Shown here piece after piece: positions 5,581 through 27,865 of a DNA stretch of 36,203 nt (positions are counted from its first letter, which is position 1; each line of letters begins with the position of its first letter). A model generated the notes under the pieces. It searched no databases and had not been told where the DNA came from. It saw nothing but the letters and a program-made list of their open reading frames with translations. The stretch is taken from contig JAGVGO010000261.1 in NCBI GenBank assembly GCA_020057085.1, forward strand, positions 1 to 36,203, written 5' to 3'. The translations under genes and the position numbers were made by a program. Source of the DNA: Planctomycetota bacterium. GTDB lineage: Bacteria > Planctomycetota > Uabimicrobiia > Uabimicrobiales > JABWCH01.

Positions 5581-5665
5581 GAAAAGAGACTTTGCGCGAG
5601 CGAAAGTCGCGTGAAAATCGTGCGAAAATCCGCGTTTCCTAAAAACTTATTAGGGAGTGTTCGCC

Positions 5666-8600
5666 ATGGCCAGCTTGCCGCACGAACCAGCCGAAAATCA
5701 CGGCAAAGAGTCGGGAGTGAGCGGCATCAACCAGGATATCGCACGGCAGTTGCAAAGCGCCACCCTGGTGCCGCCATCCATTTTACAAGATTACCTGGCC
5801 AAATGCAGCCAGAACAAGCAGCACCTAGGTCAGAGCTTGGTTAAAGATGGCTATCTCACCGTCCAGCAACTGGCGAAAATCCTGGCGTTGGTCAAAACCA
5901 AAGAAAAAAGTACCGAATCCGCGGCTCATCCAGTCGCTCCCCAGCAGGGTCTTGCCGGAGAGATTTTAGGTGAACACGTAATTCTGGCAGAGCTTGGCCG
6001 CGGCGGTATGGGCGTTGTCTACCAAGCCAGACACCAAACCACCGGGCAAACTGTGGCATTGAAAGTGTTGCTGGGCGGAAGCCAGGCAGATAGCGGACAG
6101 GTGCGCCGTTTTCTGCGCGAAGCAGAATCCATAGCCAATCTCCATCACGACAACATCATCCCGATTTATACGATTTCGCAAGACAAAGGGTATCACTACT
6201 TCACCATGCCCTATCTCACGGGTGGTAGCTTCGAACATTTACTGAACAAAACAGATACCTCGTTCGCGGTAAAAATCGAAATTTTGTGCAAAATCGCCCG
6301 CGCGTTGTCGCACGCCCACGGCAAAAGAATAGTGCATCGTGACTTGAAGCCTGCCAACATCTTGCTGGACCAAAACGGAGAGCCATTTTTGACCGATTTT
6401 GGCCTGGCCAAAAATCTCGACAGCAATTCGCGCCTCACGCAGACCGGAAACGTGGTGGGCACACCTTTTTACATGTCTCCGGAGCAGATAAAAGCTGCCA
6501 AAAAGCTGGACCACAGAAGCGACATTTACAGCCTCGGCATCATCCTTTACCAGATTTTGACCGGGCAACTTCCGTTTGTCGCCGACACGCCGATTGAACT
6601 CTATTGCAAGATCGCCGAACAAGAGCCGCCGGCGCCGAAGTCGCTCAACTCTGCTGTATCCGGCCCATTAGCAGCGATATGTCTCAAGGCAATCGAAAAA
6701 TCTCCAGATTTTCGCTATCAAAATGCCGAAACGTTGGCGGAAGATCTGGAGCGATTTCTGCATGGGGAAAAAGTGATAGCACAAAAACTGGATGTGCGCC
6801 GTTATTTTTCCGCAGCACTCCGGCGTCACCACCTGCATCTCTTATGGGCCAGTCTGCTCGTCATTCTGCCCATGCTGGCTTTGGCCGTAGTAGATTACCA
6901 AGCCAGGTCCCGTCACAAGAGCCCACCGCCAGAGCCGCAAGCGGAAATCGCCAAGAGATATGAAGACGGCGTCGGCAAAATGAATGAACAACGCCCGGAA
7001 GAAGCGTACATCTATTTCAACAAAGCATTGCAATTTCTGTTACTCGAAAAGAAGAAGACCAAGCAAGGCGCGCCCCACAGTAAACTGGATGAGATGGAAA
7101 AACGACTTTACCTGGCCATCGCCGATGCCGCTTATCAGGCGGCCAATTATCAGGAAGCCTACCGTGTCGGCGAGCTGAGTCTGCAATATTTTTCACTGTC
7201 GTCGGCAACAGCGAGGAAGGTACGCTGGCAGATGGCTTGCGCCGCATACCATTGCCAAATTTTCGGCAAAGCGGAAGCACTCTTTGTCAGGCTGGAGCAG
7301 GAATTGACTGCAAGCGACAACTCGGCAACCGTGAGTCCGCTGTCAGGCGAAGATATTTTGCTCTACATCAGCAGCATCTACCACCAGGGTAGCATGTCTT
7401 TCGCCAATGGCTTATGGAAATCTGTCCGGCAGAAGATGGAGCGTGCTATCGAGATCTACCAGGCCAAACAATGTCGCTATGATTTTGGGCCGGCCATGTA
7501 TCTTTATTATTGCGCCAGTGCGCTGGCCGATTTTGAAGCTCCACCTACACCACAAGAGCTGACTTTGATCGCCGGCTACCTCAATACCATCCCCGCCGAC
7601 TTGTCAGCAGATATGGGCAACCTGTATCGTGAAACCAAGGCAAGATATCTGTTGTACGTTGCTCAAAGCGCAGCCGACGGGCAAAAAGAACAGGCGGCCA
7701 GAGAGGTGTTGTCGCTGGTCGAGAGCTGCCTGCAGCAGCGTTTGCGCAAAGGTAGCCTCTATTATATGCGCGGCAGAGCATACCAGTTTTTGCAGGAGTA
7801 TACCAGGGCAAAGAACGATTTTATCAGCGCGATGCTGCGTGATCCGGCCAATCTCAGCTATCTTCGGGCACAGTTGGAACTACTGGCAGAATATGCGGAA
7901 CCGTCCGATTTTCACAACTATTACGTGGATTTTCATCGCGATTCCGAAAAAGTGTTGTGGGCGAAAGTCAATCTTTTTGCCAAAGAATTCGCTCTGTTGA
8001 AAGGTTACTACATCCCGCAAAGCCTGAGTATGGCCAAAGGCATCCCGTTTTCTGAGCAGAAGTTTGCCGAATTTTACCATCTGCTGCAAGACGAATCGCT
8101 GCGGCAGATAGGCGAAGCGGCTCTGTGTAGCATGTTTCCATGGCAAAAGACGACCGGCGCATTGGACGAGAAACTGCGACAGATGACGACGCCCTCCGAT
8201 GGGCAGACTCTGCAAAAATTGATCGTGGCAATCCGTGAGGCGGACCAGCAGCGTCAGATGATTAAATTGCTGGCGACTTTGTCGCAACTGGCAGACGAGG
8301 ACAAAATTTGGGATCTCGATCATTTCAATACTCCGGAGCAATTGAACCTGCTGCAAAACCTGATAAACGACAGCAGATGCGACGTGCTGATGCGTTTTCT
8401 GGCGGCGCGGGTGCTGGTCCGTATGCCTTCTCTCGCTGTCAGGCAGCAGCTTGTCGAGCAATACCAGAAGCAGGATATATCGCTGCGGATCATTATTGCG
8501 CGCGCTCTCCAGGAAGTGGAAATTGTACACACCTTCTGGAACAAAAATTTTTTTGCAGAATTGTCCGTTTTTTTTACCCCGCAGCAAACCGGACTGTCTT

Positions 8601-10579
8601 TTTCCGGCGACAATACCGAAGACAGAATCGTGACAGCGGAAGAAGAGAAAGAGTTTTTGTATTTTTCACTCGCCGAAATATTGCCTTGTTACGAACCCAA
8701 GGCAATTCAGATCGCCCAATGGCTGCTGGAAAACGGAAGCCAGCGCGTAAAGCTGGCAGTGCTTTCGCGTTGCAATATGATTCCAACGCAACTGCGGCCG
8801 CTGCTGGCTGAAGTGTGCAGGCAAGGTGTGTTCTCGACGCAACAAGAAATGCGGACTTACACTATAGCGATTTTGGGCAGACATCTCAACTATTCTCTCG
8901 ATACGATGCAGTCTCTGTGGCGTGGATTCTTTCGCCAGGAATTATGGAACGACACGTTGCATAAACATATCTGCGGTCTGGCACAGCAAGACAATCTGCC
9001 CATGCAAAAAGCCATTCTTTATTTGTGGCGGGGTTTGGCGCGCGTTATCAAGCACTATCCGGGTGAAAAACAAGATATTATAAAAGTTGTCCGCACCATG
9101 TGGAAAAGTACGGACAGCCTTATCCGCTGTCAGGCAATGGCCAGTTCGGCCCAAATGAACGACCAAGAATTGTTGCCAAACCTGCTGGATAAAAAGACCA
9201 GCTTCTCGATTTCCGAACAAATCACAGGACTCCTGGTGAGCTTCAAGATTCAATACCGCCAGAACAAGCAGCATTTAGCCAAATTTATCCAACATTGCCT
9301 AAAAACCATCAAAGACCCGGAAGTTGCCCCACTGCTGCGCGGCATCATGCTTTATATGTGTACGTTGTACATGAACGCCAGCCAGGAGCAGTCTCCAATC
9401 CAACCTATGATGCTCATGCCATTACTGGAAGTCCCTCTGCTCGACGGTTTGCGCAGCCCTTGGCCGATTCTACGCTTTGCTTCGATCTTGGCCGTTGGCA
9501 ATATGTCGCGAGTTTCACTAAAGATGCTAGCGGTGTTGGGCAAAATCAAAGACGACGACACATGTCTTCATATCCGCGCCGCCGCTTCCGGGGTTTTGCT
9601 CGCCCACTACAGAAACAATAGCTTACCGGAATACAATGCGCTCAAGACATGGATCGAACAACAACAAGGCGAAACAGCGCGGATGTACAAACTGGCCGCT
9701 TTATGGGGCTATACCTCCTATCTGACCAACAGCCATCTGATTTCCTACAAAATCAACTCGCAGCTTGGCAGCGAACCGGAAAAGATATGGAGTTATCGGT
9801 GCCAGCGGATGTTACAGTATCTGGAACAAAATCCGGGTGAGCTGCAAGAATACATCAAGCGATTGGAATCAGTCATGGAGCTGAAGCTAGAAGACGAGAT
9901 TCTGCAAACATCTCAAGAATATTTCTATCTGCTGGTGTGGTTTTATCAGATCAGTGGGCAGACGGAAAAGGCTTTGCCGTTGGCATCCTCCACTGTCAAC
10001 AGGCTGGGACGCAAGAATATCCGGCTTACCGAATTGTGGGCTCAACTCATGGTGAAAAACAACCAATCCCCACAAGTCAAAGCCAAACTCGAACAAATGC
10101 TGCAAGAGGCCAGTCAGCCCGTACCTGACGAAGACATGAACAGGCTGGCGATACATCAGGCGTCTTTATACCGGAGCCTGGCCCAAGTGTGCCAGCAGGG
10201 AGCGGAGTACAGTTACGACATCGAACTGTTACTCAAAAATCAATATTTACTAGCGCCTCAGCAGACATTTTCACTGCGTGCCATGCTCGAATATTATTAC
10301 CTGCGCGAAGATTATCAGCAGGTCATTTTTCTGTGCCAGGAGGTGGCTTTCTATTTACCTAACGATGGTGAACCGTACATATGGCTGGCCAAGGCTTATG
10401 CCAGGCTTGGTGATCATGACAAGGGACTGAGCAGTCTCGATATTGCCTGCGATTACGGCTATTTCCACACACCGCAGCATTTAAAGATGCACCCGGAGTT
10501 TGCCGTCTGGGCAGACAGAGCCGAATACAAAAAGATAGTGGAAGACAATTTCAGTTCCAAGAACAAAAAGAACGACTGA
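5666..10579 (+). CDS. Giant membrane Ser/Thr protein kinase with TPR and HEAT-like repeats
   Basis: A 1637-aa PknB-type kinase. Residues about 15-70 form a small helical domain (HLGQSLVKDGYLTVQQLAKI), similar to the N-terminal domains of type II/IV secretion ATPases. The kinase domain (about 100-380) has the glycine loop GRGGMG (111-116), Lys133 in VALK, HRDLKPAN (His224, Asp226) and DFG (Asp244), so it should be active. One membrane helix lies at about 392-411. Beyond it are about 1200 residues of helical repeats: TPR-like (about 425-750), HEAT/ARM-like in the middle, and TPR-like again near the end (YIWLAKAYARLGDHDKG). ATG 5666 is preferred because AGGGAG lies 8 nt upstream. The kinase faces the cytoplasm and the repeats face outward. 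Substrates are unknown. Confidence 0.9.
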   Translation: MASLPHEPAENHGKESGVSGINQDIARQLQSATLVPPSILQDYLAKCSQNKQHLGQSLVKDGYLTVQQLAKILALVKTKEKSTESAAHPVAPQQGLAGEILGEHVILAELGRGGMGVVYQARHQTTGQTVALKVLLGGSQADSGQVRRFLREAESIANLHHDNIIPIYTISQDKGYHYFTMPYLTGGSFEHLLNKTDTSFAVKIEILCKIARALSHAHGKRIVHRDLKPANILLDQNGEPFLTDFGLAKNLDSNSRLTQTGNVVGTPFYMSPEQIKAAKKLDHRSDIYSLGIILYQILTGQLPFVADTPIELYCKIAEQEPPAPKSLNSAVSGPLAAICLKAIEKSPDFRYQNAETLAEDLERFLHGEKVIAQKLDVRRYFSAALRRHHLHLLWASLLVILPMLALAVVDYQARSRHKSPPPEPQAEIAKRYEDGVGKMNEQRPEEAYIYFNKALQFLLLEKKKTKQGAPHSKLDEMEKRLYLAIADAAYQAANYQEAYRVGELSLQYFSLSSATARKVRWQMACAAYHCQIFGKAEALFVRLEQELTASDNSATVSPLSGEDILLYISSIYHQGSMSFANGLWKSVRQKMERAIEIYQAKQCRYDFGPAMYLYYCASALADFEAPPTPQELTLIAGYLNTIPADLSADMGNLYRETKARYLLYVAQSAADGQKEQAAREVLSLVESCLQQRLRKGSLYYMRGRAYQFLQEYTRAKNDFISAMLRDPANLSYLRAQLELLAEYAEPSDFHNYYVDFHRDSEKVLWAKVNLFAKEFALLKGYYIPQSLSMAKGIPFSEQKFAEFYHLLQDESLRQIGEAALCSMFPWQKTTGALDEKLRQMTTPSDGQTLQKLIVAIREADQQRQMIKLLATLSQLADEDKIWDLDHFNTPEQLNLLQNLINDSRCDVLMRFLAARVLVRMPSLAVRQQLVEQYQKQDISLRIIIARALQEVEIVHTFWNKNFFAELSVFFTPQQTGLSFSGDNTEDRIVTAEEEKEFLYFSLAEILPCYEPKAIQIAQWLLENGSQRVKLAVLSRCNMIPTQLRPLLAEVCRQGVFSTQQEMRTYTIAILGRHLNYSLDTMQSLWRGFFRQELWNDTLHKHICGLAQQDNLPMQKAILYLWRGLARVIKHYPGEKQDIIKVVRTMWKSTDSLIRCQAMASSAQMNDQELLPNLLDKKTSFSISEQITGLLVSFKIQYRQNKQHLAKFIQHCLKTIKDPEVAPLLRGIMLYMCTLYMNASQEQSPIQPMMLMPLLEVPLLDGLRSPWPILRFASILAVGNMSRVSLKMLAVLGKIKDDDTCLHIRAAASGVLLAHYRNNSLPEYNALKTWIEQQQGETARMYKLAALWGYTSYLTNSHLISYKINSQLGSEPEKIWSYRCQRMLQYLEQNPGELQEYIKRLESVMELKLEDEILQTSQEYFYLLVWFYQISGQTEKALPLASSTVNRLGRKNIRLTELWAQLMVKNNQSPQVKAKLEQMLQEASQPVPDEDMNRLAIHQASLYRSLAQVCQQGAEYSYDIELLLKNQYLLAPQQTFSLRAMLEYYYLREDYQQVIFLCQEVAFYLPNDGEPYIWLAKAYARLGDHDKGLSSLDIACDYGYFHTPQHLKMHPEFAVWADRAEYKKIVEDNFSSKNKKND

Positions 10580-10643
10580 AAAAAAATCGCCCCGTCATCG
10601 ATAAAAGTGCCCTCAAGAATGTGAAGTTATTTTTAGACAGAGC

Positions 10644-13600
10644 CTAGATCGCCCTGCTTCGCTTGCTTCGGCGTAAACTTTGGCCGGTGTAGCTGTGGCG
10701 GCAGCGCATTACCTCGTCAGGTGTGCCGGCGCACACGAGTTTACCGCCCCGGTCGCCGCCTTCCGGCCCGAGGTCAACCACGAAATCGCTGCTCCTGATC
10801 ACGTCCAGGTTGTGTTCGATGAGAATAACCGTATGTCCCTGCGCGCGCAAGCGGGCGATCACGTCGAGCAGTTTTTGGATGTCGGCCGGGTGTAGTCCGG
10901 TGGTCGGCTCGTCCATGATGTAGAGCGTGTGGGCACCACCGGCCAGCGACAACTCCTTGGCCAGTTTGAGGCGCTGCGCCTCGCCGCCCGACAGGTGGGT
11001 GGTGAGCTGACCCAGCTTGATGTAGCCAAGACCGATGTCGTCTAACACCTGTAGTCTTCTGACGATCTGCGGCCTGCTGGCGAAGAGTTCCCTCACTTCT
11101 ACCACGTCCATATCGAGCACTTCGGCGATGTTTTTTCCGCGATAATGCACGGCCAGCGTGTCTTCCAGATAACGCTTGCCGTGACAAGCCTCACAGGTGA
11201 CCCACACGTCCGACAGAAAGTGCATCTCCACTTCGATCACACCTTGCCCTTGGCAAACTTCGCAGCGCCCGCCCGGCCGGTTGAACGAAAAACGTGCCGG
11301 GGTGAAGCCGCGCGTCACTGAGCCGGCCATGCTGGCGAAAACTTCGCGGATCGGCGTGAAGATATCGCAGTAGGTGGCGACATTGGAATGGGTCGAGCGC
11401 GCCAGAGGTGTCTGATCTACCACACTTAGCCTCCGCACGTTCTCTACGCCGGAGATGTAGGCAAATCCTCGTTCGGCGCTGCCGGCTATGGTGTCGCCTG
11501 CGCTTTCGCCACGTTGTTCCTTCTCGATGAAATGAGTATCGAGCGCCTTCTGCAAAATTTCCACTACCAGAGACGATTTGCCGCTGCCCGATACGCCGGT
11601 CACCACGCAAAAACGTTTGAGCGGGAAGGCCACGTCAATATTTTTCAGGTTGTGCAGGCAAGCCCCATGTATTTCGATCCAGTCGTGCGGCTTTCCCTGG
11701 GCACGCGCGATAGCGACCTGCCACTTGCCTGCAAGGTACTGGCCGGTGACAGAATTGGGGCTTTGCTCCACCGCAGCCGGCGTACCAGAGGCCACCACCG
11801 TACCACCGGCGTGGCCGGCCCCCGGCCCCATGTCAATGAGATGGTCGGCGCTTTGCATGCAGAGTGGGTCGTGCTCTACCATGACCACGGTGTTGCCGAG
11901 GTCTACCAGATTTCGCAGGGTGGCGAGCATGCGTGCGGTGTCGTGCGGGTGCAGTCCTACCGTCGGTTCGTCGAGCACATAGATGACGCCGACCAGGCGA
12001 TTGCCGATCTGGGTGGCCAGCCGGATGCGCTGTGCCTCGCCGCCCGACAGCGTGTCGCCGCGCCGGTCCAGACTGAGGTAATCGAGGCCGACATCGTACA
12101 GAAATTGCAGGCGATTCCTGATGTCCTTGATCGCCTCTTCGGCGATCTTGGCCGCTTGGGCATTCAGTCTGAGGTCGCGCAGAAAGTCGCCGGCCTCGCG
12201 GATGTTGAGGCGACAGAAGGCTGGAAGCGACATGCCGCCCACCGTCACCACGCGGTACTGCGGCTTCAGCTTCTCGCCCTGGCAGGCCGGACAAACCTCA
12301 CGCTCGTCGCTGCTGCCGCGCACCGTGCCCAGCCCGTCGCACTGCGGGCAGGCGCCGAGATAGTGGTTGAACGAGAACATACGCGGGTGCAGTTCTTCTT
12401 CCTGGTAGTAATCGCAGGCAACACAGCCTGGCACCGTGCAAAACGGTAGCGGCAGGTGCGTGTTCTCGCCGGTCCAGAAAAACGCCACCCCCTTGCCCAT
12501 GCCAAACGCCGTCTCGAAATTGGCGGCCAGGCGTGACAGGTTACTTTGCTCGGCGCTTACGCGGTCAATGACCAGATGGATTGGGGCGCGCGGGATGCTG
12601 GCGGGCAATTCCTCCAGCCGCTGCATCTGTCCCTTGATGCACACCCGCACAAAGCCTTGCCGCAACAGTTCCTTGGCATATTTTCTGAGTTCGCAGGGTG
12701 AACTCAAGGTGAACTCTTTGTGCGCACCCGGCCAGCAGAGCGGCGACAGCACCATGCCGTTTTGTCCGCTGAACTGCGCCACCACGCTGGCGGCCGCCGT
12801 ACTCGGCGAGTAGGCCTTGAGTTCCTGGTTGCACTCCGGACAGTGGGCAATGCCGATGCGCGCGTAGATGATGCGCAGGTAGTCGTAGATTTCGGTCATA
12901 GTTGCGACGGTCGAGCGCGGGTTGGCCGAGGCGGTCTTCTGGTCTATCGAAATGGCCGGCGCCAGCCCGTCCACGCCATCCACCTCGCCGTGATCTAGCC
13001 GTCCCAAAAAACGGCGGGCATAGGTGGAAAGCGACTCGAGGAACATGCGCTGCCCCTCGGCAAACAAGGTGTCGAATACCAAAGACGACTTGCCGCTGCC
13101 GGAAACGCCGGTTACCACGGTCATCTTGTGCCACGGGATGGTGACGTTGATGTTTTGCAAATTGTGCTTGGTAGCGCCGCGCACGACAATGTCGCGGTTG
13201 GCGTTTTCGTGTTTGACGCACGGGCGAGAGGTGGCGGTCGTCCGTTGTTCGAGCGTCAACATTTTCATGGCGAAATATTCGCGCAAAGCGGTGCCGGTAT
13301 GCGAGCGTGCGCACGCCATGACGCTTTCGGGCGGCCCTGCCACCACCACTTCGCCACCTTCGGCACCGCCTTCGGGGCCGAGGTCAATGATCCAGTCAGC
13401 CACCTTGATGACATCCATATTGTGCTCGATGACGAGGACGGTGTTGCCCTGGTCAACCAGTTGTTGCAAGGCGGCGAGCAGGTTCTTGATGTCGGCCACG
13501 TGCAGCCCGGTGGTCGGTTCGTCCAGTATATACAATGTTTTTCGGCTCACACGGCTCTGCAGCTCGCGCACTATCTTGATGCGCTGCGCTTCGCCGCCCG

Positions 13601-16058
13601 ACAGATTCGGTGACGGCTGGCCGAGCCGAATGTAGCCAAGCCCCACGGCGAGCATGACGGAAAGGGCCGGCTTCAGTTTCGGATGGTTCTCGAAAAAAAG
13701 AGCCGCCTCGTTCACCGTCATTTCGAGCACGTCGGCTATGTTCTTGTTGCGGTAGTGGATTTCCAGTGTCTCGCGGTTGAAGCGCAGACCGTTGCACTCT
13801 TCGCAAGGTATCCATACGCTCGGCAGAAACTGCATTTCGATCTCTTTGTAGCCGAGCCCTTCGCACATCTGGCAACGTCCCTCGCTCACGTTGAAGGAGA
13901 AACGACCGACCTGGTAGCCGCGCGCGCGTGCTTCGGGCAGCATGCTGAAGAGTTCGCGGATGTCGTCGAAAATTTTGGTGTAAGTGGCTGGGTTGCTGCG
14001 CGGCGTGCGGCCGATAGGCGACTGGTCAACCTCAACCACGCGCTTGATCAGCTCGACGCCGAGAAGTTTTTTGTGTGGGCCGGGCACCTCGCTGCTGCCG
14101 TACAAATGGCGCGCGACTGCGCGGTAGAGCACGTCGTCGAGCAGGGACGATTTACCGCTGCCGGAAACGCCTGTCACCGCCACAAAGAGGCCGAGCGGAA
14201 TGGCGACATCAATGTTCTTGAGATTGTGCGCAGCGGCCCCCACAATGGTCAGCCATTCACTGTCGGGCACACGTCGCGCCACGGGGCTGGCTATTTCCTG
14301 GACACCTGTGAGGTACTGGGCGGTGAGCGATTCGCGGACGTAAGCGATCTGCGCGAGAGTCCCTTCGGCGACGACCCTGCCGCCCTCCTGACCGGCACCA
14401 GGCCCCATGTCAACCAGGTGGTCGGCGGCACGCATGGTTTCTTCGTCGTGCTCGATCACCAGCACGGTGTTGCCGAGATCGCGCAGTTCTTGCAGCGACA
14501 GGAGGAGCTGCTTGTTGTCGCGTGCGTGCAGGCCGATGGACGGCTCGTCGAGAATGTAGAGAACTCCCTGTAGCCCTGCGCCGAGCTGGCGTGCCAGGCG
14601 GATGCGTTGCATTTCACCGCCGGCCAGCGTGTTGCCGTGCCGTTCGAGTGTCAGGTAGGCCAGCCCCAGATGGTGCAAAAACATCAGGCGCGTGGTCAGC
14701 TCGTGGAAAATTTCGCTGCCGATTGTTTCTTCCTGCGGTGACAGGGCGACGCCGCGCAAAAAGGCCAAAAGTTCGCTCACCCGCATGGCGCTTACCTGAG
14801 CTATGTTGTGGTCGTGGAACAACACATGGCGGCTCTCGCTGCGTAACCGCGTGCCCTGACAGTCCGTGCACGGATAGACATTGAGGAAGCGGCGCAGTTG
14901 GTAGAGATGCCATTTTTCGAATATCTGCTGCAACACCGGAATCACACCGGGAAAATAACGAGCGCGGGGTTGGTCTTTGCCCTCGCTATTTCCGTACAGC
15001 AACGTCTGCTGAAAGTCGGGCGGCAGCTCCTGCCACGGCGTGTCGAGCGACAAACCAGAGGCCTCTGCCAGTTCGACGATATCGCTCATGCCGTAGCGAT
15101 GGGAAAAGAGGAGTTCCCCCTCTTTGTTGAAGCATTGCAAGGCTCCTTCATTGAGCGACAGGGTGGGGTCCGGCACCAGGAATCTGGCGTCGAACTCTTC
15201 GTAGCTGCCGCTGCCGTTACAGGTCGGGCAGGCGCCTTCCGGACTGTTGAAAGAGAAGAGGCGCGGTTCGAGTTCCGGAATGCTGAAACCGCAGTGCGGG
15301 CAGGCACGGTGCACCGAAAAGATGTCGTAGGCATTGTCGTCGCCGGCAAAAGCGACCAGTCCGTTGCCGATCTTGGTGGCGTGTTCGATGTCTTCGCGCA
15401 ACCGCGACAACGCAGGCTGGGCGATGACAAGGCGGTCGAGCACAAGTTCCAAAGTATGTTTTTCGTAGCGCGACAGCTTGATCTCCGTTTTCTCGTCGAG
15501 ACGATGTATCTCGCCGTCCGCACGCACGCGCACGAAGCCATCGGCACGCCACTGTGCCAGCTCCTTGCGGTACTCGCCCTTGCGCTCGACGATCATGGGG
15601 GCCAGAATGAGCATCTCCTTCTCCGCATAGCGGCTGAGAGCGAGGCGCGCGATCTGGTCGGTGCTTTGTTTAGCCACTGCCACATGGCAGTTGGGGCAGT
15701 GGGGCGTGCCGAGACGCGCAAACAAGAGCCGCAGGTAGTCATAGATGGCGGTGATGGTGCCCACCGTCGAACGCGAGCTGGCGCCGCGCCGTTTCTGGTC
15801 AATGCACACGGTGGGTGAGATGCCGTCAATGCGTTCTACTTTCGGTTTTTCCATGTTGCCCAAAAACTGGCGCGCATAGGGTGAAAGAGACTCGATGAAA
15901 CGACGCTGCCCTTCCTTGTACAAGGTGTCAAAAGCCAAAGACGATTTGCCGGAGCCGGAGACGCCGGTAATGACAGTGAGCGTGTGGCGAGGGATACGCA
16001 GGGAAATGTTCTGCAAATTGTTCTCGCGCGCGCCTTCAATTTCGATGTAATCTTGCAT
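10644..16058 (-). CDS. uvrA: Tandem (double-length) excinuclease ABC subunit A
   Basis: UvrA finds DNA damage and loads UvrB in nucleotide excision repair. At 1804 aa this is two UvrA units in one chain, the second starting near residue 948. Four Walker A motifs GVSGSGKSS occur, near residues 32, 631, 981 and 1487. Four ABC signatures follow, each with a Walker B of the DEPxxGLH type. Cys-x2-Cys zinc motifs (CPHCGF, CPTCNG, CQMCEG, CEECNG, CPQCDG, CEVCQG) recur in both halves. The first signature is unusual: [12 protein letters not shown] instead of [12 protein letters not shown]. Fused UvrA is known in chlamydiae and planctomycetes. ATG 16058 is chosen over an upstream TTG; neither has a strong ribosome site. 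It lies 52 bp after argS on the same strand. Confidence 0.95.
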
Positions 16059-20449: not shown

Positions 20450-20482
20450 TCCGACAGGTCCGACAGGTCCGACAAGTCCGAC
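20450..20482. repeat. 9-bp tandem repeat, unit TCCGACAGG/TCCGACAAG
   Basis: Three full 9-bp units plus a partial fourth (TCCGAC) run in tandem. They lie between two genes, ahead of the true start of the pentapeptide protein. Read in frame they would give PTGPTGPTSPT, which is why an over-long start for that gene should be rejected. The same unit recurs in inverted arrangement at 33181-33216. Confidence 0.8.
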
Positions 20483-20537
20483 GAAAAAATGGCCATGTTT
20501 CATAGAACCCATCCGTACAATTTTGAGGAGACAATTT

Positions 20538-21821
20538 ATGGAAAAAGAATTGCCGCTGTTGAGCAGCGAAGAGTTGAAAAAAAAACTGGAGGCGGGAGAA
20601 CCGATCCAGGGATTTCGTATCGAAAGAATAAGCCTGGGAAAACGCGAAATCACCGTGCCCATCAACCTGGTGGAATGCCAGATTGATACGCTCGATGCCA
20701 ACAACTCCCAGGCGCGCGAGGATATTTGCATCCGCCGCTGCGAAATTGATACGCTGGTGTTGAGCGATACTACTTTCCACAAAAAAATTGATTTCAAGAA
20801 ATCCAAGGTGAGAAGAGGTCGCATCCAGCGGGCCACGTTCAAAGGCGAAGTCAGCATGGATGAGGCGTCTCTCGCCTTCACTTCGTTTCACGAAAGCGTC
20901 TTTGAGGACGCGGCCGATTTCAGCCGCAGCAGCTTCTATGGCGATTCCACGTTCACCAAAACCTCGTTCAAAAAGGACGCCAAGTTTATCTATGCCGAAT
21001 TTGCCACCAAGGCCGCTTTCGCCGGCGCTGAATTTTGCGCTAAAAGCGACTTCCGGCATGCCCAGGTGGGCGAGGACCTGGAATTACAGGACGCGATTTT
21101 CCATGGCGAACTTCTGCTTTTGGGCGCTCTGGTCAAACTCAGCATCAACCTGACCAACGCCCGCCTGGAAGACAAGGTAGATTTTTCTCACGCCATGGCT
21201 GGGCGCAGCATCATTCTCAACGACGCAAAGCTGGGGGAAAAACAGGGGTTCCGCTTCAACAACTGCTCGGCCAACACCATTTTACTGGAACGCGAGACCG
21301 TGGAAGGGCATATCTTCCCTGAGAACGAAGGCGTTTATGCCACCGCGGCAAAGGAATACGGTTTTTTGCGCACCACGTTCGCCAGCCTCAACCGTTTTGA
21401 AGACGAGGATTGGGCGTACTACCAATTCAAACGCATGAACCGCTTGGGCAAACGTATGCCCCGTAATCCTTTGGCTTTGCTGAAACGTGGTTGTGAGTAT
21501 CTGATGCTGGACCTGGGCTGTGGCTATGGCACCAAGCCTTTCCGCACCTTTGGCATGATCGGCGTCATGGTGATTTTGTTCACCCTTGGCTACTTTTTTT
21601 ATTTCAGCAATACCCCTGCCCCTGAAACCTACGGTGTCCAGGCGGAGTGGCTCAACAAGCTGCTCTACTGTTTTCACATCAGCCTGACGAGCTTCAGCGG
21701 TAACTACAGCAATCTCAACATTCCTGGCGCAATCAAGCTGTTGGCAATGCTGGAATACCTGATCGGCGTCGTTTTCATGGGTATTTTCGTGGTTTCTTTC
21801 AGTCGTAAGGTTATACGTTGA
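20538..21821 (+). CDS. Pentapeptide-repeat protein with C-terminal 2-TM pore-like domain
   Basis: A 427-aa protein. Residues about 50-250 contain degenerate pentapeptide repeats with A(D/K)F or FxxAxF spacing (ADFSRSSFYGDSTF, AKFIYAEFATKAAFAGAEF, VDFSHAMAGRSI), predicting a right-handed beta helix. The last 95 residues have membrane helix 1 (about 337-355), a pore-loop-like stretch (YCFHISLTSFSGNYSNLNIP, about 377-396) and membrane helix 2 (about 400-425). This resembles Ion_trans_2 channels, but the filter reads SFSGNYS instead of TVGYG. The start is set at ATG 20538, with GAGGAG 8 nt upstream; an upstream frame extension merely translates the tandem repeat. Its stop TGA overlaps the ATG of the nuclease-like gene, so the two are translationally coupled. 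Confidence 0.82.
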   Translation: MEKELPLLSSEELKKKLEAGEPIQGFRIERISLGKREITVPINLVECQIDTLDANNSQAREDICIRRCEIDTLVLSDTTFHKKIDFKKSKVRRGRIQRATFKGEVSMDEASLAFTSFHESVFEDAADFSRSSFYGDSTFTKTSFKKDAKFIYAEFATKAAFAGAEFCAKSDFRHAQVGEDLELQDAIFHGELLLLGALVKLSINLTNARLEDKVDFSHAMAGRSIILNDAKLGEKQGFRFNNCSANTILLERETVEGHIFPENEGVYATAAKEYGFLRTTFASLNRFEDEDWAYYQFKRMNRLGKRMPRNPLALLKRGCEYLMLDLGCGYGTKPFRTFGMIGVMVILFTLGYFFYFSNTPAPETYGVQAEWLNKLLYCFHISLTSFSGNYSNLNIPGAIKLLAMLEYLIGVVFMGIFVVSFSRKVIR

Positions 21822-23116
21822 TGGAAGAGATGCCAAAGATTCGCCAAGGGATCGTTTTTCTGCGCAGCCTGGCGGCAAAAGATGGTTTTTGCTGGCACGA
21901 CCTGGGGGAAAGCGATTTACGCAATTGTGTAGCGAAGCAGATTGCGAACCGGCAAAACGACGAGCTGTTTACCCATCGCTGCCAGGTCCGCGATTTAAAA
22001 AAAGCTCACTGGCCGCGACTTTCCCAGTTGGAAGCAAATTTGGCGCGGACGACGATCACCTACGACGCCTGCGCCAACAAAGCTCGCCTGGAAATTTTGC
22101 AGCACAGCATCGAAAGCTCGCAAAAAGCCATCGCCGGCTTATCGCAGGCAGTGCAACAAACCCAGGGAGAAAAACGCGCCGCCTGCGAGGCCAAATTGCG
22201 TGAGTTTACAGAGAAGCTGGCGGCTTGCGAAAAGGAATACCAGGATGTGTGGCACAATACGCCGGAAAGGGCGGCACTGAACCAGGCAGAGGAAGAGTTG
22301 GCAAGATTTAAAGAGGCGGTTGGCTTGACCAGTAAAGAGGCACTGGTGGAGGATCTCGCCCACCAACAAGGCAAAAACTCGGGAGCGCGCGGCGATGCTT
22401 TTGAGCAAGCGGCACAGGCGATCCTGGAGAACAAAATTTTGCCTTTGCTGGCACATAAAACTGAGCTGGCGGGTGAGGTATGGAGTACAGTAGCGCCGGA
22501 AATCCACATTCTGTCGCAAGTCACCCTTGGCTGTGCCAGGGCGGAGATGGATTATGTGGTGGTCCGGCAGCCGCAAAACAAAGAGGACACTCCCGTGGAA
22601 GTACTGGCATTGGTGGAAGTCAAACGCAATCTCAACGATGTCGCCGGCGGTTTTTTACAGCGCCAGGAAAACCTGGCGTGGTTTTGCCGCGACGCCCGTG
22701 GGTACGACCCGGCACTGTACCGGACCAAAATTTTCAGCAAAGGCCATTTTGACCGGCCGGCCTGGCACGAGCAAAACGGCGCAAAATTTCTCTTTGCCGC
22801 TGACTCTTTTCGGCGTTTTCATCGGGACAAAAAAACCAGTTATTTCGTTGACAATTTGTTTTTCATTACCCGCCGAAGGGCTTTGCTCGGGATGTCAGCC
22901 GCCGACTATGCAAAATTCCTCTACCACTTGGCCAGCGATATGGCATTCGATTTGGATAGTCAGGCCTATCTTCACACTTTACAAGATTGGCTCAAGGAAA
23001 AGCTCCCCTGTTTCCAGACCGCCGATGTTTTGCGCCTGTACGCCAAGCACCGACCATGGGGCGAGCAATTTCTCGTGCTAGAAAGCCTGCACAAAGGGAC
23101 GCAGCGGTTATCTTGA
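21821..23116 (+). CDS. Coiled-coil PD-(D/E)XK nuclease-like protein
   Basis: A 431-aa cytoplasmic protein. Residues about 55-175 are charged and helical, probably coiled coil. A PD-(D/E)XK-type core then appears: Glu195 in GARGDAFEQ, Asp244 in AEMDYVVV, and Glu266-x-Lys268 in ALVEVKRN. The 22-residue Asp-to-Glu spacing and hydrophobic strands around each motif fit this nuclease superfamily; NLNDVAGGFLQRQENLAWF follows as a helix. The start ATG (21821) overlaps the preceding stop as TGATG. A second ATG at 21830 is possible. No homologue with known function is recognised, so nuclease activity is inferred from motifs only. Its 3' end overlaps napB tail-to-tail by 9 bp. Confidence 0.75.
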   Translation: MEEMPKIRQGIVFLRSLAAKDGFCWHDLGESDLRNCVAKQIANRQNDELFTHRCQVRDLKKAHWPRLSQLEANLARTTITYDACANKARLEILQHSIESSQKAIAGLSQAVQQTQGEKRAACEAKLREFTEKLAACEKEYQDVWHNTPERAALNQAEEELARFKEAVGLTSKEALVEDLAHQQGKNSGARGDAFEQAAQAILENKILPLLAHKTELAGEVWSTVAPEIHILSQVTLGCARAEMDYVVVRQPQNKEDTPVEVLALVEVKRNLNDVAGGFLQRQENLAWFCRDARGYDPALYRTKIFSKGHFDRPAWHEQNGAKFLFAADSFRRFHRDKKTSYFVDNLFFITRRRALLGMSAADYAKFLYHLASDMAFDLDSQAYLHTLQDWLKEKLPCFQTADVLRLYAKHRPWGEQFLVLESLHKGTQRLS

Positions 23117-23530
23117 CTTATATGGCGGCTCTTCGTTGGCCTGAGGTACGTGGCATTGCAAACAATAATAGCGCATGCCAATAACGTTTTCTGACGTTTT
23201 TTCTTGGGTAAAAGGATTCAGGTAATGTGATTGTGGTATCGGCGTCGGCTTCTGCCCTTCGTTTGCCGGGATATGGCACACCAGGCAATCGTGGTCCTCG
23301 GTATTGATGGTCTGTGTCGAAATCTCGTGCGGAATAACCGGCGGAGCGCCTAAGTAGGCTCGCGGCAAGACTGTGTTCTCGCCCGGTTGGCCGGCGGTAA
23401 ACACATTCATGCCTGGTGTATCTGAAAAAAGTACGCTGCGCAAGGTGATAGTTTTATCGCCGGCAAGGGATGCCAACGCCAGGAAAAACAAGGCGACTAC
23501 TAGAATCAAGGGTTTTCTTAACTTGTTCAT
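23108..23530 (-). CDS. napB: Periplasmic nitrate reductase diheme cytochrome c subunit
   Basis: A 140-aa exported diheme cytochrome that hands electrons to NapA. A signal peptide ([17 protein letters not shown]) is followed by NapB landmarks: [10 protein letters not shown], heme site [17 protein letters not shown], and heme site [11 protein letters not shown]. Each CxxCH binds one heme c. The start at 23530 is preferred because its ATG overlaps the napA stop (ATGA), giving translational coupling; a longer frame has no ribosome site. Length and motif order match NapB. The gene ends inside the last codons of the convergent nuclease-like gene, with no terminator visible between them. Confidence 0.92.
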
Positions 23531-25923
23531 ACTTTTTCCACTTTCACCGCACATTTTTTAAAATCTGCTTGGCAGGAAATCGGACAGTAGGCGTCCAGGG
23601 TCACCTCGTTGATCGCTACACTTTCATCAAAGAATGGCACGTACAGCGTACCTGCCGGCGGTTTCACACGTCCGTTAATCTCTACACACACGTGGATGCC
23701 GCCTCGGCGGGAAGATATTTTCACCTGGTCGCCATTTTTGAGGCTGAGTTTTTTGGCGTCGTTGGCATGGATGTTTACCGTGGCGTGCGGATAGGCACGG
23801 TACAATTGCCGCACTCTGCGGGTCATAGTGCCGGAGTGCCAGTGCTCAAGCACCCGGCCAGTACACAGCCAGAAAGGATACTCGGCGTCGGGTAGCTCAG
23901 GCGGCATCTCATAGGGACGTAGCCAGACGACCGCCTTGCCACCGTCTTTCTTGTTGCCATAAAACTGAATTTTTTTCTCTTTTGCCACATACGGGTCGTA
24001 GTCGCTATTGTAACGTATCGCTGTCTCCTTGCCATTTACCACAGGCCAACGCATACCTCGGCGTTGGTGGTACTCCGCAAAGGGTGCCAGGTCATGGCCA
24101 TGGCCCAGCCCAAATTGGCGGTACTCCTCAAAGAGCGCCTTTTCTATATAAAAGCCGGCAGCCACACTGGCATCCGAACTGGTGTAGTCGGCGGGCAGCA
24201 GATAGTCAGCCTTAGCATAGTCGAACAAATAGCCGCATCCCATTTTTTTTGCAAATTCAATGATTTGCCACAGATCGGACTTGGCTTCACCAGGGGCGGC
24301 GATCATTTTTTTCCAGAACTGGGTGCGACGCTCGGCATTGCCAAAGGCCCCCTCTTTTTCGATCCACATAGCCGCCGGCAACACTACATCCGCGTGCTCG
24401 GTCGAGCTGTTGGGATAGACATCGGAAACGACGATGAAACGGCCTTCTTTGCGGGCACTGGCTTGATAGCGTCTGAGATTGGGATAGGTCTGGAATGGAT
24501 TACTGGTACTTGACCAAAAGAACAGGACATCACCACGGTCTAAAGCACGCATCATCTCTATGGCGTTATAGCTGGGTTTGTCTGGAATGGTGCCTGCCGC
24601 TAGTTTCCAGATGCGCTCCGCTGTCTTTCTGTGTTCGGGGTCTGTTACCACCATATCGGCAGGAAGGCGATGGGTAAAAGTGCCGGTTTCCCTACAAGTG
24701 CCGCAGGCAGATGGCTGGCCGGTCAGCGAGAAGGGCGCATTGCCCGGCGTGGCGATTTTGCCGGTCAATAGGTGCAGATTGTAGATGAGATTGTTCATCC
24801 AGGTCCCGCGTGTGTGTTGGTTCACACCCATAGTCCACAGCGACATTACCTTGAGCTTGGGATCGCCATAGTAGTTGGCCAACATTTTGAGTGCGTCAGG
24901 AGAAACGCCGCTTAACTGCTGCACTAACTCCGGTGTGTAGTGCGCCACGAAGGTTTTGTATAGTTCGAAGTCAACAAGCTGGGGGATATCCTTGAAACTA
25001 AATTTATCCTGTAGCCCATAGCCGATATTCTCCAGCCCTTTTTTAAACACCAGGTGCTCACGCATAAAAGCTGTGTTGAGCTGGTTGTTTTGTATGAGGA
25101 GATGCGCGATGCCGTTGGCAATGGCCAGATCGCTTTGCGGTTTGAAGATAATTTCGGCGTTTGCCATGTCACTCGAACGGTTCGAGATGGTGGTCAGGTT
25201 GATGAGCCTGGCATCAGGTTTGGCTTGCAATCGCTTGATTACGTGGGAGAACAGTACCGGGTGCATCTCGGCCATATTGGCTCCCCACAGGATGAAGACA
25301 TCGGCATGCTGAAAATCATCGTAACAGCCCATTGGTTCGTCCATACCAAAGGTAGTCATAAAACCGGCCACCGCGCTGGCCATGCAGTGGCGGGCGTTGA
25401 CTTCCAGGCTGTTGGATTTAAGCCCGCCTTTCCACAGTTTGGAAGCGGCATAACCTTCCCAGATAGTCCACTGGCCGGAGCCAAACATGGCTACGGCGCT
25501 CGGCCCTTTCTGGGCAATAATTTGCTTGGCCTTTTCTGCCATGAGTTCTAAGGCAAAATCCCAGCTCACTTCTGCCCATTCTCCCCGACGGTGGTAGTTG
25601 CCATTTTTCATGCGTACCAGTGGTTTGGTCAGCCGGTCGCTGCCGTAACTGATAAATGGCAGAGCGTAGCCTTTGATACACAGGCAGCCCTGATTGACCG
25701 GTGACTGAGGATCGCCTTTCACCGCGATTACCTTGCCGTCCTTGACGCCTACCATGACACTACAGCCTGTACCGCAGAAACGGCAGGGGGCTTTGTCCCA
25801 AACGACACCATCATTGGCAGTGTCGGCGAATAGTTCCCAAGGATCGCAATAGACCATAGCGCTCGCTCCCAGTGCGCTCAGGGAACCCATACGTAAAAAG
25901 TCTCTCCGCGTGATGTTCTGCAT
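23527..25923 (-). CDS. napA: Periplasmic nitrate reductase, catalytic molybdenum subunit
   Basis: Reduces nitrate to nitrite in the periplasm. The 798-aa protein starts with a Tat signal ([18 protein letters not shown]). It then has the 4Fe-4S ligands C47-x2-C50-x3-C54 and C82 ([14 protein letters not shown]). [13 protein letters not shown] with [13 protein letters not shown] is the NapA signature that supplies the Mo-ligating cysteine. The C-terminal molybdopterin domain ([21 protein letters not shown]) is complete. ATG 25923 is chosen for GGAG 7 nt upstream. Only napB follows; napD, napC, napG/H or another quinol-oxidising partner are not in the window. TATAAT lies 68 bp upstream of the start. 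Confidence 0.95.
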
Positions 25924-25978
25924 AAAAAAACTCCGCATAAGCTAGTTCTTCTTATTTCTGGCCCGTGCCTTCATCATC

Positions 25979-26105: not shown

Positions 26106-26176
26106 TTTCACCGTCTCTGCCAGTACCGCAGGGAGTGAGTACTAGAAGACTATTTTTGATAAAAAGGACCTCAGCT

Positions 26177-27865
26177 ATGATCATTCTACAAAATTTTGCC
26201 ATAGACACGGTTGGCACGGACGAGCAGGGCAAAACGTGCGCCTATCCGCTCATTCAAAACGCCAACCTCACGAGCGGTGAAAGCGGCATCATTCTGCTAC
26301 TGGGTCCGAGCGGTTCGGGCAAGTCGCTGCTCATCAACATGCTGCTGGGCCTGGTGTCGCCACATATCCCCGAACTGTGGCTGGATCACAACAGCCAATT
26401 CTGGTTTGTCGCGGACCGGCGTTACGATATTTTGGGCGATTTATATCCGCCCCAGTTGCAGGGCAAGATCGGCATCATGTTCCAGTCGCTTGGACTGTTC
26501 GACGATCTGACGGTCAGGGAAAACATTGCGTTTGCCAACAGCCAATCGCTGCGACCAAGGCCAGCCAAAGAATTTGAGATGTGGCTGCCCAACCTTTTCG
26601 CCGCCAACAACCTCAACCTGGGGCCGAACATGGTCCATGCCCGTCTCAACATCTTGTCGGGTGGGCAACGTCAGCGCGTCGCTTTTGCCCGCCTGCTTGC
26701 CTACCGGCCAGAGGTGAGGATTCTCGACGAGCCGACCGCGGCACTGGATGCAGCAAGCGCGCAAAACGTAGTGCGGCTTATCCAGAGCGACCAGGAAGCG
26801 CAGCTCACCATCATCATCACCCACGATTACGAACGTTTTTTACCCATTGCGCAAAGGGTGTGGTTTATCACCAGCGACCAAGAGCAAAGGCGCGTGATCG
26901 AAGACCATTGCCCGCCGCAGCCGCCGGACTATTATAAACAAAAACTCGCGCAAAACTTGCCTAACTACAGCTACGACCCGACCACCGCCAGAAAGAATGG
27001 ACAGAGTTACCGGCAATATCGTTACAAGTGCCTGGACATTCCCTGGCAGACAGCCCATCGCCGCCTTTACTATGGCTTCCGTCGTGCGTTCCAGTGGAGC
27101 ATCTACCGATGGTTCGGCAAATTTTTCTTTGTCCTGTCGCGATTACTGATACTGCGGGCCACGCCTTATGTGCTGTTCGCCAGTTTTTTTCTGGGACTTG
27201 TGGCCACTTATTTCGCCTTCCACACCAGTTTCGGCAAAGTGCCTGCATCGGAAGTGGAAGTGTCGCACATCATCCGTCCGCTTTTTTTCGAACAGATGTT
27301 GTCTGGTTTCAGCGTCGCCTTGTTTCGTGTGCTGGTGCCACTCCTTGCCTGCATCTTTATCGCCGCGCGTTCCGGCATCGCCATCACCGCCTATCTTTCC
27401 AGCATGCGTGACACAGAAAGGCGGCAGTGGGATGCGTTTCGTACCTTCGGCGTAGATCCCAACACCTTCTTTTTCCCGCAGGTGTTCATCTGTTTTGTCT
27501 TCGGCTGTGCGCTGCTCGCCTACCTGTCGTTTTTCAGCGCTGCCCTTGGTTGCCTTATGATCGCAGTGTACACCAACGAGTTGTGTACCTGGTTTACCTG
27601 GCTGAATAGCTTTTGGAACAACCTGGAACCGGCCTATTTCCTTGGCGTAATACCTTATTTCCGTGGCTTTGGCATGTTTCTCGCCAAAACCATGTGCGCC
27701 GGCGCTGCTATTGCCGTTATCAGCTTCTGGTGGGGAACCCGTGCCAAAAAGAGTTCTCTCGACACGCTGCGCTACCTGATCGGTGCCAACATCTGGAACA
27801 TGATGGCAATCCTCGTCATCTTCTTCATCCTGTTGCTGCTCGATATCCACTATTTCCCGTTGTAA
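26177..27865 (+). CDS. ABC transporter, ATPase-permease fusion (MlaF-MlaE-like)
   Basis: A 562-aa inner-membrane protein. The N-terminal ABC ATPase has Walker A GPSGSGKS (43-50), signature LSGGQRQR (160-167), Walker B/D-loop ILDEPTAALD (Asp184) and switch His in ITHDYERF. From about residue 325 the chain is hydrophobic with about five helices. The stretch ARSGIAITAYLSSMRDTERRQW and FRTFGVDPNTFFFPQV matches the MlaE/YrbE permease signature (R-x-G-x-A-...-M-x-x-x-E-Q-x-D-A...G-x-x-P). In most bacteria MlaF and MlaE are separate and work with MlaD and MlaB in phospholipid transport; none of these partners is adjacent here. ATG 26177 has AAGGA 9 nt upstream. Confidence 0.82.
   Translation: MIILQNFAIDTVGTDEQGKTCAYPLIQNANLTSGESGIILLLGPSGSGKSLLINMLLGLVSPHIPELWLDHNSQFWFVADRRYDILGDLYPPQLQGKIGIMFQSLGLFDDLTVRENIAFANSQSLRPRPAKEFEMWLPNLFAANNLNLGPNMVHARLNILSGGQRQRVAFARLLAYRPEVRILDEPTAALDAASAQNVVRLIQSDQEAQLTIIITHDYERFLPIAQRVWFITSDQEQRRVIEDHCPPQPPDYYKQKLAQNLPNYSYDPTTARKNGQSYRQYRYKCLDIPWQTAHRRLYYGFRRAFQWSIYRWFGKFFFVLSRLLILRATPYVLFASFFLGLVATYFAFHTSFGKVPASEVEVSHIIRPLFFEQMLSGFSVALFRVLVPLLACIFIAARSGIAITAYLSSMRDTERRQWDAFRTFGVDPNTFFFPQVFICFVFGCALLAYLSFFSAALGCLMIAVYTNELCTWFTWLNSFWNNLEPAYFLGVIPYFRGFGMFLAKTMCAGAAIAVISFWWGTRAKKSSLDTLRYLIGANIWNMMAILVIFFILLLLDIHYFPL

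Follow-up and report, generated by a model that had tools for sequence, protein, structure and literature searches.

Antiphage systems that tie a membrane component to an enzyme acting on nucleic acids have already been described (Hailong, Kiwa, Zorya, and SNIPE), in line with an earlier note on the present locus, which had called this a known antiphage design. In Hailong, the effector HalA (NCBIfam NF051894) has pentapeptide repeats and, after them, a membrane ion channel; according to two papers that cite the original work, DNA adducts or oligomers keep this channel shut, and the block is lifted by the exonuclease activity of phages (PMC13275509, PMC12657230). Kiwa (KwaA/KwaB) joins a membrane protein to a cytoplasmic partner that acts on DNA; in a review that also treats Zorya and SNIPE, KwaB is described as binding DNA without cutting it (PMC12904381). 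Zorya combines an ion-passing membrane unit with nuclease effectors (PMC12904381), and SNIPE places a nuclease at the inner membrane, where it cuts the DNA of a phage as this is being injected (PMC13190303). A further set of relatives, the pentapeptide-repeat channels of the potassium type (Ion_trans_2 fusions), join a beta-helix to a 2-TM pore through an EDWAY-type linker.

The locus that we compare with these systems is a pair of genes in a stretch of 36,203 nt (the window), which is contig 111 of a Planctomycetota genome that is 59% complete; among the relatives of this genome are a Candidatus Brocadiia MAG and Candidatus Uabimicrobium amorphum. Gene 1 (20538..21821, +; 427 aa) encodes a pentapeptide-repeat beta-helix (Pentapeptide_3, E 2.7e-16) with a 2-TM pore, and gene 2 (21821..23116, +; 431 aa; model pLDDT 84.6) encodes a coiled coil with a likely PD-(D/E)XK-type nuclease. 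The two genes share 1 nt in a TGATG stop/start overlap (21819..21823, +; TGA 21819-21821, ATG 21821-21823), which likely couples their translation. The earlier note had listed both reading frames, this overlap, an SFSGNYS loop in gene 1, and the residues E195, D244, and E266-x-K268 in gene 2, and all of these are confirmed in the sequence. The repeat E-value, the invariance of the residues, the core model, and recurrence in seven loci indicate that these features are more than chance.

Around the pair, units resembling TCCGACAGG form a short tandem array just 5′ of gene 1 (20450-20483, +), and NapB- and NapA-like nitrate reductase genes follow directly downstream in convergent orientation (23108-25938, −), the NapB frame sharing the last 9 bases of the nuclease gene. 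Elsewhere in the window are a Ser/Thr protein kinase with HEAT repeats (5657-10579, +; 1640 aa), a protein of 1804 aa that combines UvrA interaction and DNA-binding domains with several ABC-type ATPase regions and appears to be a UvrA of double length (10647-16058, −), and a single protein that fuses an ABC ATPase with an MlaE permease, which are usually two subunits (26135-27865, +).

The pore protein

The pentapeptide-repeat region of gene 1 (about aa 40-250; 20655..21287, +) is predicted from its Pfam match to form a mildly acidic cytoplasmic beta-helix. A conserved linker, EDEDWAYYQFKR (aa 289-300; 21402..21437, +), precedes the pore, and its EDEDWAY is partly shared with the EDWAY-type linkers of paralogous channels. 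The pore itself comprises TM1 (about aa 337-357; 21546..21608, +; hydropathy peak 2.0), a degenerate selectivity filter, SGNYSN (aa 387-392; 21696..21713, +), and TM2 (about aa 399-420; 21732..21797, +; hydropathy peak 2.45), after which comes the conserved C-terminus SRKVIR.

Gene 1 alone reaches only E 0.25 against Ion_trans_2, and nothing in NCBIfam matches it at E 1. However, 10 out of 19 relatives of gene 1 do match Ion_trans_2 (best E 1.5e-12), and although a profile of the full gene matched nothing in the PDB, a profile of the pore part built from these 19 relatives, paralogues included, matches KirBac3.1 (E 1.7e-4) as well as the KcsA and NaK channels. Two TM helices and a pore loop homologous to those of solved channels place gene 1, on these profile comparisons, in the potassium-channel superfamily.

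The earlier note had described the filter as a non-potassium one. This holds for the window copy, in which the T-x-G-[YF]-G selectivity filter is absent, but the alignment refines the description, since the closest orthologues (45-51% identity) carry SGGYGD, SGGYSD, or SGGYSA, and some paralogues carry TTMGFGD. The window sequence is therefore better described as a decayed potassium-type filter. Proteins like gene 1 are abundant in the window's order, with 4-15 matching places per genome, so gene 1 may have an ordinary channel role.

The coiled-coil nuclease

Gene 2 has no TM segment (hydropathy maximum 0.98). Its model shows a coiled-coil arm (about aa 64-190; 22010..22390, +) among helices at residues 64-82, 87-113, 117-145, 148-167, and 169-216, followed by a predicted nuclease core (22388..22690, +) that is defined by invariant columns and the core model. 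The four candidate active-site residues, all encoded on the + strand, are E195 (22403-22405), D244 (22550-22552), E266 (22616-22618), and K268 (22622-22624); they are unchanged in eight homologues and again in a 12-member alignment of the core.

Since the full-length model was swamped by coiled coils in Foldseek, the core was remodeled alone. The resulting AlphaFold2 model (mean pLDDT 87.5) contains, in its own numbering, a helix at 2-43, strands at 54-61, 70-77, and 87-94, a helix at 98-115, and then a strand at 141-145. This is the PD-(D/E)XK order of helix, three strands, helix, and strand, with the catalytic Glu in the helix and the Asp and (D/E)-x-K in strands 2-3, at their expected places. 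The modeled topology and the position of the conserved residues support the earlier reading of gene 2 as a coiled coil fused to a PD-(D/E)XK-type nuclease core, and we regard this fold as likely.

Fold searches with the core gave weak matches. Foldseek found no PDB match at E 0.001, returning weak matches to PaqCI and restriction-endonuclease-like proteins, and profiles of the nuclease alignment found only coiled coils in the PDB, or nothing. Among viral models, the best structural matches are two unnamed proteins of the giant virus Yasminevirus (BFVD A0A5K0UB34 and A0A5K0UC66; E 5.8e-4 and 1.4e-3), with herpesvirus UL24 matching weakly. Matches of gene 2 to V-SNARE, ZnuA, and Avs2 were discarded as weak and mostly within the coiled coil. 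In hhalign, the nuclease-like family DUF6602 (PF20247) aligns with gene 2 at a probability of 78% (P 1.8e-5), with the three motifs matched in the same order (G..E / D / E-x-K); however, the single-sequence Pfam match is insignificant (E 0.04-0.13), and the DUF6602 members examined lack the coiled-coil arm of gene 2.

Distribution of the pair

Homologues of the nuclease are rare. Seven are credible among 392 sampled Planctomycetota, two other genomes (G090 and G111) having been dropped because their weak matches covered short N-terminal or coiled-coil stretches only. By order, the nuclease is found in five out of 170 genomes of Planctomycetales (the order of G290), in nine out of 145 genomes of Myxococcales (the order of Archangium), and in five of the six genomes of the window's own order.

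In seven Planctomycetota lineages the nuclease gene is immediately preceded by the pore gene in the same orientation: in the window, in G004 (L028, pore 8219-9496 and nuclease 9505-10779), in G484 (L040), in L039, in G290 (L056), in G418 (L059), and in G527 (L060). The spacing between the two genes ranges from an 8-base overlap up to 109 bases, and each locus has different genes on its two sides. Homologues that never occur as neighbors, a possibility that the earlier note had set against its own reading, are thus not what we find. The association is strictest in Planctomycetales, where the C-terminal domain of the partner occurs in only four out of 170 genomes, each time as the gene just before the nuclease (P = 1.5e-7 for co-occurrence); in the fifth nuclease genome, G436, the nuclease copy is cut by a contig end, and no pore domain was found elsewhere in that genome. 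The Planctomycetales partners are of a different pentapeptide type from window gene 1, and a comparison of the full gene with them gave hhalign P 0.06; with a deeper pore profile, the pore domains of the two types are homologous (hhalign probability 88.8, P 2.5e-6). Adjacency in seven lineages together with strict co-occurrence in one order supports the joint function that had been proposed for the two proteins, which we consider probable.

Four of these partners carry an additional N-terminal domain, detected by profile match (L056:7420-8160, +; L059:7808-8608, −; L060:11500-12290, −; L039:393-1190, +). It is covered by no Pfam family and matches chain 6d7y_A over 98 positions (E 1.2e-4), with the common pattern ALxKHxxR...GxGxR..DG.FxGF.D. 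The deposited name of this chain is "Hemagglutinin"; we take it for the toxic tip of CdiA, a protein of contact-dependent inhibition. Window gene 1 has no such domain.

The two genes also occur apart, some of the window's relatives included. Both are present but unlinked in G001 and G005, G003 has the nuclease with only remote pore relatives, and G002 has the pore and lacks the nuclease; gene 1 orthologues in G001, G002, and G005 accordingly have no nuclease nearby. In G068, the nuclease copy is interrupted by masked bases and has no adjacent pore. The nine nuclease-bearing Myxococcales genomes have the nuclease alone, neither pore type being detected genome-wide. In the nuclease tree, three groups follow lineages (Planctomycetales, the window's order, and Myxococcota), although most deep nodes are weakly supported; this grouping and the presence of the gene in most genomes of the window's order make the nuclease look inherited rather than mobile.

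Solo copies and a lineage-wise tree are what might be seen if gene 2 were a housekeeping nuclease of repair or nucleic-acid quality control, recruited to the membrane by gene 1 in some lineages only. The same explanation gains from Ca. Uabimicrobium amorphum, whose nuclease carries a fused endonuclease V domain (L030:7698-9647, −; aa 441-622, E 2.8e-48). However, two more endonuclease V genes stand alone in this genome, and the endonuclease V genes of its relatives are unlinked to the nuclease. The fusion therefore looks like a single late event, and we rejected it as proof of a repair role. A patchy distribution is moreover unlike that of a housekeeping enzyme, and a maintenance role leaves the strict co-occurrence with the pore in Planctomycetales unexplained. 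On balance, we consider this explanation unlikely.

Function of the pair and comparison with described systems

The genomic surroundings give little indication of a defense role. Among 51 flanking proteins from six loci, there is no defense-gene cluster around the pair; matches are few, weak, or isolated, and the flanks consist of ordinary metabolic and regulatory genes. One mad3-type PADLOC match (E 1.4e-21) occurs among the flanking proteins and is absent from a rescan of ten candidate proteins. Neither gene 1 nor gene 2 credibly matches a PADLOC system protein, and no carrier of the nuclease was found in the phages, plasmids, and viral contigs searched. The enrichment near defense genes that the earlier note had envisaged is therefore not seen, and its proposal of a defense role is not established; we regard the chances of a conflict or defense role as about even.

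Two clues from sequence comparison point toward effectors. One is the toxin-like domain of the four Planctomycetales partners. The other is HalA itself: positions 155-338 of the HalA model, its C-terminal part, match gene 1 paralogues in five genomes, far below the 250-bit cut-off, which no protein in ten genomes exceeds. The pentapeptide part of the same model matches the Planctomycetales partners, which may reflect the repeats only.

The explanation that we favor, although tentatively, is that the two genes encode a two-component conflict module at the membrane, made up of a pore and a nuclease. It draws on the adjacency of the pair in seven lineages, in constant order and orientation and with differing flanks, on the co-occurrence in Planctomycetales, on the invariant active site, on the match of the pore profile to KirBac, KcsA, and NaK, on the homology of the pores of both partner types, on the two clues toward effectors, and on the patchy distribution. 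Against it stand the missing defense cluster and mobile carriers, lineage-wise inheritance in the window's order, the nucleases without a linked pore in several lineages, the gene 1 orthologues without a nuclease nearby, and the lack of a toxin-like domain in window gene 1.

The homology of the pore, the likely nuclease fold and its conserved active site, and the constancy of both adjacency and gene order come from the sequence comparisons; from these we infer a physical complex, DNA as its substrate, pore opening, a trigger, and an action against invaders. Gene 1 would form a HalA-like pore, probably tetrameric, with its beta-helix toward the cytoplasm, and the soluble coiled-coil nuclease would dock on this beta-helix, so that pore and nuclease are kept together beneath the inner membrane. 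Once the complex is reached by foreign DNA, or by a disturbance that a phage causes, the nuclease would cut nucleic acid there, or the pore would open and depolarize the cell, or both, and the infection would be stopped. This specific picture, of a nuclease held at a HalA-like pore, is somewhat more doubtful than a conflict or defense role as such.

A different division of labor would make the pore the effector and the nuclease its control, with the nuclease making or removing a nucleic-acid ligand that keeps the pore shut, as DNA oligomers do in Hailong. The pair would then be a self-contained immune switch of two genes in Planctomycetota and a new class of membrane effector gated by nucleic acid. 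In it, a PD-(D/E)XK-type nuclease of the same locus, and not a nucleotidyltransferase, would rule the HalA-like pore, and the contact-inhibition-type toxin domain of the Planctomycetales pores would be taken in as well. The HalA-like architecture and the recurrence of a nucleic-acid enzyme as partner agree with this, as does the Hailong evidence in PMC12657230. However, no HalB nucleotidyltransferase is seen among the genes neighboring the pore gene, where the nuclease stands instead; the filter residues of the window copy are lost; and the similarity to HalA is remote. We think such gating rather unlikely.

Control in the style of a toxin-antitoxin pair, in which one protein is toxic and the other restrains it, appears improbable. 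The overlapping, co-directional genes fit such a pair, and the beta-helix could mimic DNA toward the nuclease in the way that the pentapeptide beta-helices of MfpA and Qnr do toward gyrase. The window beta-helix is only mildly acidic, however (net charge about −5 over 221 residues), there is no small antitoxin-like gene, and in Myxococcales the nuclease occurs without the pore. Chance adjacency in pore-rich genomes, to which the unlinked copies in G001 and G005 might point, is very improbable given seven adjacencies in different contexts, with the pore always first, and the co-occurrence in an order that has no other copies of that pore type.

Returning to the conflict module, its general design is not new, since membrane-plus-DNA-enzyme defense is known from all four systems above; the pair is rather an undescribed variant. 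Searches of PADLOC, NCBIfam, and the literature found no described system with this pairing, in agreement with the earlier note. Compared with Hailong, gene 1 shares with HalA the order of pentapeptide repeats and then a membrane channel, and in both systems the pore protein is paired with a nucleic-acid enzyme, but the partner of HalA is the nucleotidyltransferase HalB and that of gene 1 a PD-(D/E)XK-type nuclease. With Kiwa the pair shares the two-gene plan, although neither window protein matches a PADLOC Kiwa model, and with Zorya the combination of an ion-passing unit and a nuclease, although the ZorAB motor, ZorC, and ZorD have no PADLOC match in the window proteins. SNIPE resembles the role proposed here but is one protein, with DUF4041 and a GIY-YIG nuclease, whereas the pair consists of two, and its nuclease is of the PD-(D/E)XK type. 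The pentapeptide-repeat channels of the potassium type share the architecture of gene 1, but some keep TTMGFGD-type filters, and across the searched genomes none is linked to the nuclease. Should the prediction hold, the pair would add a nuclease-partnered branch to the pentapeptide-pore effectors, for which the described example that we found is HalA of Hailong, and would show how two genes suffice to unite a pore with a DNA-cutting enzyme. In Planctomycetota, whose immune systems are little studied, it offers a concrete, testable system with named residues for mutation.
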